Assembly: GCA_903904005.1 (NCBI GenBank)
Contig: CAIVAR010000116.1
Coordinates: 1-64,000, forward strand
Origin: an uncultured Anaeromyxobacter sp.
Lineage (GTDB): Bacteria > Myxococcota > Myxococcia > Myxococcales > Anaeromyxobacteraceae
Direction: 5' to 3'
Length of the DNA: 64,000 nucleotides
Each line of letters starts with the position of its first letter. The first letter of the stretch is position 1. Shown here one piece after another: positions 14,068-17,330 of the stretch. Below the pieces are notes generated by a model, which searched no databases, was not told where the DNA came from, and saw only the letters and a program-made list of their open reading frames with translations. The position numbers were made by a program, and so were the translations under genes.

Positions 14068-14972
14068 GCGCCGTCTCGCCAGGGGGTGCTGGCCCGGAGC
14101 GCCGCCAGGATGGCCCGGGAGCTGGGCGATCGGTTCAGCGTGTAGAAGTGGATGCCCGGGGCACCGCGCCGCAGCAGGTCGGCCGCCTGGAGGCTCGCGT
14201 AGGCCACCCCGAACTGGAGCGAGGCGTCGGGATCGGCGCGCCGCACCTCGAGCGCCGCCTGCAGCGGCGGCGGGATGGAGGCACCGCACATGGCGGTGAA
14301 TCGCTCGATCTGGTCGACGCTGGTGAGCGGCATCACCCCGGGCATCACCGGCTGGGAGATGCCGGCGGCGCGGGCCCGCTCCACGAATCTGAAGTAGTGG
14401 GCGTTCTCGAAGAAGAGCTGGGTGACGAGGAAGTCGACGCCGGCGTCCACCTTCACCTTGAGGTGGGCCAGGTCCCGGGCGAGGTCTCGCGTCTCGGGGT
14501 GCCCCTCGGGGTAGGCCGCTGCGCCCACGCAGAAGCGCCAGCGCGCGGGCTGGGAACGGACGAAGGCCACGAGGTCGCTGGCGTGGGCGAAGCCGTCCGG
14601 GTGCGGCGTGAACCCCTGCGCTCCCTTCGGCGGGTCGCCGCGGAGCAGGAGGACGTTCTGGATGCCGGCGGCGGCGACGTCGTCGAGGACCCGGGCCACC
14701 TCGTCGCGGGGGGAGCCGACGCAGGTGACGTGGGCCACCGGCTCCACCTCGACGTCCCGCTTGAGCCGCTTCACGAGGTCGACGGTCCGGGCCCGGTCGG
14801 AACCACCCGCGCCGTAGGTCACCGACACGAAGCCCGGCCCGAGTGGCCGGAGCGCCTCGACGGTCTGGAAGAGCTGCCGCTCTCCCTCGTCGGTGCGGGG
14901 AGGAAAGAACTCGAAGGAGAAGACCGGCTCGCCGCGCTCGCGTGCGAAACGGAGGATGTCCGTGACCTTCAC
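14064..14972 (-). CDS. metF: Methylenetetrahydrofolate reductase
   Basis: FAD enzyme that reduces 5,10-methylene-THF to 5-methyl-THF for methionine synthesis. The product is 302 residues, typical of bacterial MetF. Landmarks are FSFEFFPPRTDEGERQL at residues 17-33, SVTYGAGGS, VAHVTCVG, NVLLLRGDPP and FLVTQLFFEN. The GTG start at 14972 lies close behind a TATACT (14987-14982). The gene is divergent from greB and converges on the lipoprotein gene with a 4-bp overlap of stops. Functionally it connects with glyA and trmFO in this window, which make and use methylene-THF. Confidence 0.95.
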   Translation of the reverse strand: MKVTDILRFARERGEPVFSFEFFPPRTDEGERQLFQTVEALRPLGPGFVSVTYGAGGSDRARTVDLVKRLKRDVEVEPVAHVTCVGSPRDEVARVLDDVAAAGIQNVLLLRGDPPKGAQGFTPHPDGFAHASDLVAFVRSQPARWRFCVGAAAYPEGHPETRDLARDLAHLKVKVDAGVDFLVTQLFFENAHYFRFVERARAAGISQPVMPGVMPLTSVDQIERFTAMCGASIPPPLQAALEVRRADPDASLQFGVAYASLQAADLLRRGAPGIHFYTLNRSPSSRAILAALRASTPWRDGA

Positions 14973-14981
14973 AGGGGCGCG

Positions 14982-14989
14982 AGTATATT
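14982..14989. promoter_or_regulatory. AT core shared by the divergent metF and greB promoters
   Basis: AGTATATT in an otherwise GC-rich gap can be read as a -10 on both strands: TATACT leftward, 9 bp before the metF GTG, and TATATT rightward, 24 bp before the greB ATG. No convincing -35 is seen on either side. The two promoters, if real, cannot be occupied at the same time. Confidence 0.4.
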
Positions 14990-15013
14990 CCGGCGGAGAG
15001 GGCGCAAGCGAGA

Positions 15014-15514
15014 ATGAGCACCGAGAAGCCCGTCCGGGCCGCGCGATACATCACCCCGGAGGGCTTCCACCGCATCTCCGAGGAGCACCAGCGCATCTGG
15101 ACGGTGAGCCGGCCCCGGGTCGTGGCCGAGGTCGAGGCCGCCGCGGCACTGGGCGACCGCAGCGAGAACGCCGAGTACGTCTACGGGAAGAAGAAGCTGC
15201 GCGAGCTCGACCGCAGGCTGCGCGAGCTCTCGGAGCGGATGGACACGCTCACCGTGATCGACCCGAAGCCCCACCCCTCCGGCCGGGCCTACTTCGGCGC
15301 CTGGGTGAAGGTGGAGAACGAGGACGGGTCGGAGCGGCGATATCGCCTGGTCGGGCCCGACGAGTTCGACGTCGAGTCGGGGCTGATCAGCGTCGACGCC
15401 CCCCTGGGGCGCTCGCTCCTCGGCAAGAAGAAGGGGGACGTGGTGGTGGTGCGCCGTCCCGCCGGCACGGTCGAGGTCACCGTGCTCGGCGTCTCCTGGA
15501 AGGCGGCGCGGTGA
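15014..15514 (+). CDS. greB: Transcription elongation factor GreB
   Basis: Rescues backtracked RNA polymerase by stimulating transcript cleavage through the secondary channel. The product is 166 residues. The N-terminal coiled coil is seen with the acidic tip region (LGDRSENAEYVYGKKKLREL). The C-terminal FKBP-like domain includes YRLVGPDEFD and SLLGKKKGD. The YxYGKK stretch and the length favour GreB over GreA. It is divergent from metF. Its stop overlaps the GTG start of the next gene by 4 bp, which indicates translational coupling. Confidence 0.9.
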   Translation: MSTEKPVRAARYITPEGFHRISEEHQRIWTVSRPRVVAEVEAAAALGDRSENAEYVYGKKKLRELDRRLRELSERMDTLTVIDPKPHPSGRAYFGAWVKVENEDGSERRYRLVGPDEFDVESGLISVDAPLGRSLLGKKKGDVVVVRRPAGTVEVTVLGVSWKAAR

Positions 15515-16038
15515 GCGGGGCGCCGGAGATCGTCCGGGACCGGGCCGCCCAGCGCGCGCTGCTCGAGCGGTTCGCGCGGGAGCGGCCGGCGGCGATCCTC
15601 CTCGACCCCGCCGGACCGACGCTCCTCGACGTCTTCTCCGGGAAGACCCTCCCGATCGACTGGAGCCACCTGGAGGGGGTGGGCGAGGCGCGGAACCGCG
15701 ACACCGGCGCCCCCTACCTCGCCCTGCTCCGGGACGACGGCCGGCAGGTGATCCTGGCCGACGTCGGCATCGCCTTCGAGCCGGTGGTGGCCGGGACCGG
15801 ACCCCTGCCCGGGCTGCCGACGGTGGTCTGCTTCCGGGACTTCGCGGCCACGGCGGGGCGCATCGAGCACCTGCTCGTCGACCACCCCGGCGAACCGGTC
15901 ACCCGCGACCACCTCGACCTGTTCCTCTTCCTCGTGGCGCTCGTCGACGGCGCCCGGGCGGTGGGCTTCGACGTGTCGGTCGAGGAGCGGCGGCTCGAGC
16001 GGATCCTGGGCGAGATCGAGGCGAGATCGAGCGACTAG
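15511..16038 (+). CDS. Conserved-looking hypothetical protein coupled to greB
   Basis: A 175-residue soluble protein with no recognised domain. It starts at GTG 15511 inside the greB stop (GTGA). The middle shows alternating strands (AAILLDPAGPTLLDVF, YLALLRDDGRQVILADVG) around a PLPGLPTVVCF turn. The C-terminus is helical (DLFLFLVALVDGARAVGFDV) with an acidic tail. There is no signal peptide or membrane segment. The stop TAG lies inside the CTAG that forms the left end of the palindromic element at 16035-16151. Confidence 0.75.
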   Translation: MSGAPEIVRDRAAQRALLERFARERPAAILLDPAGPTLLDVFSGKTLPIDWSHLEGVGEARNRDTGAPYLALLRDDGRQVILADVGIAFEPVVAGTGPLPGLPTVVCFRDFAATAGRIEHLLVDHPGEPVTRDHLDLFLFLVALVDGARAVGFDVSVEERRLERILGEIEARSSD

Positions 16039-16151
16039 TGCCTCGCCCCAGGCATGTTGATGTGGCGAGAGCGCCGAGACCGACGAGGCCGTCCGCCGCA
16101 GCGAGAGGATCGGCGCTCGCAGTAGTCAAGATGCCTGGGTCGAGGCACTAG
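16035..16151. mobile_element. MITE-like palindromic element with CTAG ends
   Basis: A 109-bp segment (16039-16147) has near-perfect 22-bp terminal inverted repeats, TGCCTCG..CATGTTGA on the left and TCAAGATG..CGAGGCA on the right (20 of 22 complementary). CTAG flanks it on both sides (16035-16038 and 16148-16151), as expected of a 4-bp target duplication. The 65-bp centre folds further (GAGCGCCGA against TCGGCGCTC). It has no coding capacity. The left CTAG supplies the stop of the rightward gene and the right CTAG the stop of ysxC. It could instead be a structured bidirectional terminator; the CTAG repeats favour an inserted element. Confidence 0.6.
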
Positions 16152-16777
16152 CCTGGCGCGACGTCGGCGTGCTGGACGAGCCACGCCCAGAGGGCGTCGG
16201 TCCCCGTGCCCTCCACCGCCGAGAACGGGATGGCCTCACCCCGCGGCAGCCCCAGCTCCGCCTCGGCGAGCTTGAGCGCGGGCAGCCGCTGGTTGCGGGT
16301 CATCTTGTCCATCTTGGTGACCGCCACCACGATGGGGCGCCCGGTGGAGCGGAGGAAGGAGAGGGCCTCGTGATCGCTCGGCTGGGGCTCGTGGCGCCCG
16401 TCGACGATGAGGACCACGGCGCGCAGCGGCTCCCGCTCGCGCAGGTAGGTCTCGATCATCGCCACCCAGCTCTGGCGCTCGTCCTTGGAGACCTTGGCGT
16501 ACCCGTATCCCGGGAGGTCGGCGAAGCGGATCCGCGTCACCTTTCGTGAACCGGAGGGCTGGACCTCGAGCTCGAAGAACTGCAGGGCGCGGGTCCGCCC
16601 CGGCGTGTTGGAGACGCGGGCCAGCCCCGACTTGCGGGAGAGGGCGTTCAGCATGGACGACTTGCCGACGTTGCTCCGCCCGACGAAGGCGAACTCCGGC
16701 GCGTCGGGGGGCGGGGGCCAGTCCGTGCGCTTCACGGCGGTGCGGAGGAAATCGGCGCGAAGGACGCGGAAGGGCAT
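16148..16777 (-). CDS. ysxC: Ribosome-biogenesis GTPase YsxC/EngB
   Basis: TrmE-Era-EngA-like small GTPase needed for large-subunit ribosome assembly. The product is 209 residues. The GTPase motifs are all present: GRSNVGKSS (G1), NTPGRT (G2 region), DLPGYGYAKV (G3), TKMDK (G4) and FSAVEGTG (G5). ATG at 16777 matches the family N-terminus. It is preceded on its strand by TATAGT only 6 bp away, which suggests a leaderless transcript. The stop TAG comes from the right CTAG of the palindromic element. Confidence 0.93.
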   Translation of the reverse strand: MPFRVLRADFLRTAVKRTDWPPPPDAPEFAFVGRSNVGKSSMLNALSRKSGLARVSNTPGRTRALQFFELEVQPSGSRKVTRIRFADLPGYGYAKVSKDERQSWVAMIETYLREREPLRAVVLIVDGRHEPQPSDHEALSFLRSTGRPIVVAVTKMDKMTRNQRLPALKLAEAELGLPRGEAIPFSAVEGTGTDALWAWLVQHADVAPG

Positions 16778-16783
16778 GGCGCG

Positions 16784-16791
16784 ACTATAAT
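16784..16791. promoter_or_regulatory. Overlapping divergent -10 elements, ysxC and 16797 gene
   Basis: ACTATAAT carries a -10 on each strand: TATAGT leftward (16789-16784), 6 bp before the ysxC ATG, and TATAAT rightward (16786-16791), 5 bp before the ATG at 16797. The whole gap is 19 bp. Transcripts would begin at or next to the start codons. No -35 hexamer is convincing, and any would lie inside the opposite gene. Confidence 0.5.
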
Positions 16792-16796
16792 GCCTC

Positions 16797-17330
16797 ATGC
16801 TCCCCCGCCACCTCCCGCTGACCGTCCTTTCGCTCCTCCTCCTCCTCCCCGGGACGGCCCTGGCCCGTTCCTGGCAGGGGATCACCCCCGGCCAGAGCAC
16901 CCTGGCCGACGTGGTGACCCGCTTCGGCGAGCCCTCCACGCGGGGAAAGCTCGAGGGGCGGACCGCGCTGGTCTACAAGGCGGAGCAGGCCATCGGCGGC
17001 ACGCGCCAGGCCCAGTTCCTGGTGGGGGACGACGGCAAGGTGGCCGAGATCAACGTGTTCCCTGGCGCCCCGCTGGAGAAGGACGCGGTCCTCGGCACCT
17101 TCGGCGGCGATCCGCAGAAGACCTTCACCGACGACTTCCGAACGGTCTGGCGCTACAAGGCCATCGGCGTGGTCGTCTTCTTCGGCAAGGACGGCCTGGT
17201 CGAGGCCATCCGCTTCCAGGCCGCCGCGGCGACGCCCGCGACGGGCCCGTCCCCCGCCACGACCGCCCCGGCCGGGGCGCCAGTTGCCGCACCCGCCGGG
17301 GCAGCGCCTTCCCCGGCCCCGGCGCGCTGA
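16797..17330 (+). CDS. Exported hypothetical protein
   Basis: A 177-residue protein with a clear signal peptide (LTVLSLLLLLPGTALARS, cleavage near residue 24). A compact domain of about 120 residues follows, starting WQGITPGQSTLADVVTRFGEPS. That opening resembles the small outer-membrane-assembly lipoprotein fold (SmpA/BamE-like: GxTPGxSTxxDVxxxFG). The last 40 residues are a low-complexity Ala/Pro/Thr tail. There is no lipobox. The ATG follows a TATAAT by 5 bp without room for a ribosome site. coaE starts 8 bp after its stop. The BamE-like reading is tentative. Confidence 0.8.
   Translation: MLPRHLPLTVLSLLLLLPGTALARSWQGITPGQSTLADVVTRFGEPSTRGKLEGRTALVYKAEQAIGGTRQAQFLVGDDGKVAEINVFPGAPLEKDAVLGTFGGDPQKTFTDDFRTVWRYKAIGVVVFFGKDGLVEAIRFQAAAATPATGPSPATTAPAGAPVAAPAGAAPSPAPAR

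Follow-up and report, generated by a model that had tools for sequence, protein, structure and literature searches.

The 64,000-nucleotide stretch of an uncultured Anaeromyxobacter sp. analysed here (the window) carries, between two convergent genes, a palindrome that is most probably a non-autonomous, MITE-like element inserted into a TA dinucleotide by IS630-style cut-and-paste. Its ends supply the stop codons of both neighbours, and this coincidence is a general property of the element family. The first-pass annotation of the sequence missed two features. The full-length unit measures 177 bp, of which the copy in the window is a shortened, deleted form; and across the order this unit keeps a conserved core but has unrelated ends.

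Palindromic element between the greB-linked gene and ysxC

Two CTAG tetramers (16035-16038 and 16148-16151), read directly in the sequence, enclose 109 bp bounded by 22-bp inverted repeats that match at 20 of 22 positions, as the first-pass annotation had described. The element proper is best taken as the 111 bp from 16038 to 16148, with TA on either side. The following features were assigned (strand in brackets, a dot where none applies):

16038..16148 (.) probable MITE-like palindromic element, internally deleted form, 111 bp, GTGCCTCG...CGAGGCAC; from the sequence, the 96% identical copy and the 177-bp relatives
16036..16037 (.) probable TA target duplication, left copy, inside CTAG 16035-16038; the empty site of the congener G002 is one CTAG, and TA stands on both sides in 15 A-type copies
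16149..16150 (.) probable TA target duplication, right copy, inside CTAG 16148-16151; basis as for the left copy (single CTAG in G002; 15 A-type copies)
16038..16059 (+) left terminal inverted repeat, 22 bp, 20/22 complementary to 16127-16148; the type-A repeat of relatives is GTGCYCCGNCCCAGGCA
16127..16148 (-) right terminal inverted repeat, 22 bp, pairing with 16038-16059 at 20/22
16036..16038 (+) TAG stop of the greB-linked gene, presumably target TA plus element G; an open frame with GC3 0.97 ends there, and the congener gene ends at the corresponding CTAG
16148..16150 (-) TAG stop of ysxC/engB, presumably target TA plus element G on the opposite strand; frame GC3 0.97, with ysxC of the congener likewise ending in its one CTAG
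15511..16038 (+) gene downstream of greB, about 175 aa, from the ORF list; the GTG start at 15511 is suggested by overlap with the greB stop
16148..16777 (-) ysxC/engB, GTP-binding protein, in ORF 16148-16939; probable start near 16777

The name ysxC/engB goes back to the first-pass annotation and to the motifs GRSNVGKSS and DLPGYGYAK in the sequence. Both frames run into the tetramers as had been proposed, the left CTAG holding the TAG of the greB-linked gene and the right one that of ysxC. The window strand folds as RNA at -74.8 kcal/mol, whereas shuffled sequences average -44.1 (z -7.7; none of 200 shuffles as strong); since three further copies also exist in the same genome, the palindrome is not a product of chance. 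As in a MITE, the sequence is short, has inverted ends and contains no called gene.

Copies, length forms and distribution

The genome of origin (G000; 4.56 Mb in 186 contigs) holds four copies including that in the window, all at unrelated loci, and copies are also present in at least seven relatives, with more in sister genomes; the other copies with the same ends support the proposal of a mobile palindrome. Matches were obtained in 27 of 60 relatives, the long ones being concentrated in the element's own family of bacteria. The copy at purH/purD (G000:C5:3413-3528) is 96% identical to the window copy over the whole element and has the same internal deletion. Of the two other copies, both 177 bp long, one separates a membrane-fusion-like gene from an ABC gene, and the other sits between a livH-like gene and the next gene upstream of it (gene names assigned by eye).

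The full unit of 177 bp aligns without gaps in 17 copies from several genera and has the ends GTGCYCCGNCCCAGGCA... and its inverse. Shorter forms (111, 102, 93, 78, 75, 62, and 58 bp) are internal deletions; the window copy lacks 66 bp between ACCGAC direct repeats. Given the breakpoint common to the window and purH/purD copies, the short form probably moved after its deletion, although the two may possibly have suffered independent deletions at these repeats. In G013, three copies at unrelated loci are identical throughout their 177 bp (100%), and one more copy deviates from them at a single base; therefore, the element has moved recently.

Solo forms of 18 bp, (T)AGTGCC(G/C)CGACCCAGGCAC(TA), occur in G008 and G013 (L104-L107, L113, L115, L116, L120), some of them on gene stop codons; they are explainable by deletion between GGCA of the left end and GGCAC of the right end. 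Some G008 contigs stop within repeat copies (L084 and L087, on G008:C12 and C232), and the true copy number in this genome is probably higher than counted. In an exact-pattern scan of GTDB contigs, the ends were found only in records labelled Anaeromyxobacter, Anaeromyxobacteraceae or Myxococcales, apart from four single matches (Variovorax, Burkholderiales, a Bordetella-labelled MAG, and a gammaproteobacterium), which lacked a partner end and were put aside as chance matches. No papers on such repeats in Anaeromyxobacter or myxobacteria were found in the open-access literature.

Empty sites and target duplication

In G002 the window locus reads ...GCTCTTC CTAG CCTTCC... (also TCCTAGCC; ...CGCTCTTC CTAG CCTTCC...). 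A single CTAG there, read directly, terminates both convergent genes: its TAG is the stop of the greB-linked gene, and the complement is that of ysxC. Apart from a flanking codon, this is the empty site that the first-pass annotation had predicted, and its corollary, that the insertion left both reading frames intact, is supported as well. The element is missing from this locus in the outgroup genera G004 and G009, too. At purH/purD, the empty site of G002 is CAC TAG TGGTATACC (CAC TAG TGG) and the filled site is CAC TA|GTGC...GCAC|TA ATGGTATACC (TA ATGG). At the livH-like junction, where G001 and the genome of origin have an insertion in common, G002 and G003 read CCATCAGG, with no insertion and, on the opposite strand, overlapping stop and start codons in TGATG. 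The G008 gene next to the G013 copy L073 ends in the same RKK-TAG. For several copies of G013, G001 and G003, the junctions did not align through and empty sites were not obtained. In G003 (L126, G003:C19, about 14646 to 15545), the greB-linked gene and ysxC do not form a tight convergent junction but lie some 900 bp apart, with visibly AT-richer sequence between them. The copies occupy several unrelated loci and are polymorphic for presence and absence, as in MITEs.

A single TA or CTAG at the empty window and purH/purD sites indicates a target-site duplication, but at the window locus alone a 2-bp TA and a 4-bp CTAG duplication look alike. Of the 15 A-type copies that are flanked by TA left and right, seven have CTAG on both sides and eight have unequal tetramers (e.g., TTAG/CTAG, CTAG/CTAC, and TTAG/CTAC), while the terminal G and C on the element side are constant and their neighbours vary. 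Because of this, duplication of 2-bp TA by an element of the form G...C is more likely than that of CTAG; several copies lack TA on one side. IS630-family elements duplicate TA on insertion (PMC2170065), and the title of Tenzen and Ohtsubo (1991), as cited there, names a preference for TA in CTAG. The flanks here favour the same combination, and a TA duplication fits IS630 better than IS5.

The first-pass annotation had tentatively placed the element with IS5-type MITEs that duplicate 4-bp CTAG/YTAR, a reading for which MITEPsy1 of Pseudomonas syringae is the model. The 4-bp length and the IS5 affiliation are less likely: tetramers that differ in 8 of 15 copies beside a constant G and C are expected of bases owned by the element, and the terminal repeat is absent from all DDE_Tnp_1 loci. 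MITEPsy1 (100 nt), which is linked to IS5, makes duplications of CTAG or YTAA (PMC3189936), CTAG flanks the window copy and 7 of 15 A-type copies, and several DDE_Tnp_1 transposases are encoded in G000 and G013; on balance, we consider an IS5 origin unlikely.

Association with stop codons

A gene stop lies at, or at most 4 bp from, an end in 42 of 64 elements of all types, and in 33 of 64 the stop is completed by the element's own base, both counts being approximate as genes were judged by a GC3-based test. In 400 kb of G013, the share of non-coding sites that lie in stop codons is 13% for TA, 33% for YTAR and 41% for CTAG. Target preference together with selection against other sites covers most of the stop association, and a modest excess over the YTAR/CTAG background is left. 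With respect to the gene beside them, copies have no preferred orientation (16 vs 21), a result that speaks against a function in the mRNA of that gene.

In the tandem gene pairs at L003, L005/L098, L074, L076, L078, L102, and L122, the next start codon is 2-3 bp from the element, and GGRGCAC-TA stands at the expected Shine-Dalgarno place. A possible start codon 2-4 bp past the element is present in 13 copies, with mean anti-SD pairing of -6.2 vs -5.3 kcal/mol for background starts. As the pairing is only slightly better than background, supply of a Shine-Dalgarno sequence by the right end is at most compatible with the data.

Proposed mechanism and search for a transposase

Beyond TA-targeted insertion, we infer the following course of events. 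The element would insert by cut-and-paste into TA, preferably in YTAR and often in CTAG, and duplicate the TA; with G as its first and C as its last base, target and element would together give TAG on both strands. An insertion on a stop codon, or on a CTAG common to two convergent stops as in the window, would then always rebuild the stop. In these GC-rich genomes, non-coding YTAR/CTAG sites are concentrated at stop codons, and the target preference, together with purging of harmful insertions, would leave most copies at gene ends. Between tandem genes, the element could split a TAATG-type overlap, with TAG then to one side of it and GGRGCAC-TA-ATG to the other. A transposase of the DDE/IS630 type presumably acts in trans. 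In such an element, the choice of target and the terminal base would jointly keep stop codons intact, empty sites having been identified, and some of the TAG stops of these GC-rich genomes would be owed to it.

A full transposase copy with the same ends, for which a search had been proposed, was not found: none of the IS630 (PF13358), Y1 (PF01797) or DDE_Tnp_1 (PF01609) genes in eight genomes carries them, nor did the GTDB contig scan for the ends reveal an autonomous relative. DDE_3 is absent from the genome of origin and from G013, which has the youngest copies, and its matches in G002 and G012 are without the ends. Y1 domains, mostly weak matches, are present in seven of the eight genomes; like the DDE_Tnp_1 loci, they have no such ends. 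Candidate partners of the IS630, IS4/IS5 and Y1 types were rejected on these grounds. For MITEs, the autonomous partner is often missing. The lack of a transposase with these ends counts against the IS630-style reading, as do the copies without TA on one side and terminal repeats that vary freely around a conserved core, the reverse of the usual MITE pattern.

Conserved core and alternative explanations

In an order-wide search of 145 genomes, the inner 125 nt or so of the 177-bp consensus recurred in further families of the order, as well as in different repeats of the same genus (E-values to 1e-32), with the ends missing. At these loci the core lies in palindromes of 177-182 bp whose terminal repeats differ, e.g., CTAGAGCGCCGAACAGGTTACC, CTAGGAGGCTGGTGTGAAATGG, CTAGTACCTCGACCGCGGCGCG, and CTAGAGAGCCGAACCGCTTACC. 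They too are mostly flanked by TA, except some variants from the element's own family (e.g., in G023, G020, and G015). The core hairpin recurs in 177-182-bp repeats of several families of the order at L324-L358 (G102, G131, G055, G036, G039, G099, G002 and others), for which there is no Rfam entry.

An alignment of 26 sequences gives one hairpin, with an outer stem 93% paired at 60% column identity. The core is 96% paired, and 23 of its 35 pairs are changed on both sides against a shuffled mean of 15.1 (0/300 shuffles as high), while 15 pairs are so changed in the full-length stem (0/500 shuffles); such covariation can be inflated by related sequences, and template switching in hairpins can restore complementarity without selection. 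Neither process explains the nearly invariant mismatches: tandem G-A/G-A internal loops occur in 26/26 and 23/26 sequences. The strand with G-A folds better than its complement in 25/26 cases as RNA and in 23/26 as DNA, and one folded strand appears to be under constraint.

This covariation, the G-A loops and the location of copies at gene 3' ends would suit a conserved structured RNA or a bidirectional 3'-end element (terminator, mRNA stabiliser or processing site) that is kept at gene ends and mobile only secondarily. Such a function is improbable, since sister species and outgroups have empty sites, the orientation is indifferent although the conserved fold is strand-specific, and the apex holding most of the G-A loops is lost from the window copy. 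Nor does the window region have a hairpin with a U-tract, so that a terminator was rejected. No Rfam match exceeded the gathering score; the only hit, to a plant microRNA model, fell below threshold and is put down to chance. The same palindrome at the same place in distant relatives and nowhere else in the genome, a pattern that would favour such a role, is contradicted by the empty G002, G004 and G009 loci and the four copies in the genome of origin.

Mobilisation of a REP-type palindrome by RAYT, a Y1 tyrosine transposase, via single-stranded DNA is highly improbable. GTAG REPs do often supply flanking genes with their TAG stop and are located between genes that converge or run in one direction (PMC3733652), solo hairpins of 18 bp with the end sequence occur in G008 and G013, and Y1 domains, mostly weak matches, are present in seven of eight genomes. 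However, REPs measure 20-40 bp, whereas the elements here span 58-180 bp and have 22-bp inverted ends, the flank of these elements is YTA instead of a fixed GTAG, TA stands on both sides, and no Y1 gene is flanked by the repeat.

A superfamily with the same length, the same folded core and unrelated ends inverts the usual MITE pattern and raises the question of what fixes the core while the ends change. Quite unlikely, in our estimate, is an order-wide class of mobile palindromes for which the shape of one folded strand, and not the end sequence, would be the recognition signal; they would be hairpins of about 180 nt with conserved tandem sheared G-A pairs and terminal stems that drift yet remain complementary. 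A structure-specific enzyme would move them by acting on single-stranded DNA or RNA, and a G next to TA would rebuild TAG stops at any landing place. We favour the TA-inserting, MITE-like element.

Comparison with known systems

The ERIC element is about 127 bp long, folds strongly, duplicates TA and is not known to have a resident transposase. It is an intergenic imperfect palindrome classed as a MITE, and its copy number varies by taxon (PMC10969869). The likeness seen is in architecture; here most copies complete a gene stop codon, and relatives have a common core with unrelated ends. MITEPsy1, whose link to IS5 we query, is similar as a 100-nt MITE with 18-nt ends inserted at CTAG/YTAA (PMC3189936), but a 4-bp duplication is reported there, whereas TA is supported here, and the ends are unrelated by inspection. 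Both ERIC and MITEPsy1 are close parallels of the window element. GTAG REPs are likewise gene-end palindromes with termini often supplying TAG (PMC3733652); unlike the present element, they are 20-40 bp long, bear a GTAG tag at one end and have an adjacent RAYT partner. TA duplication and preference for TA in CTAG are common to IS630/Tc1-mariner elements and ours, but the genome of origin and G013 have no IS630-type transposase, and none in the other genomes searched carries these ends. TAG-supplying palindromes are thus already known, and the single element belongs to a known kind; the new part, and what differs from these systems, is the superfamily with a conserved core and changing ends.
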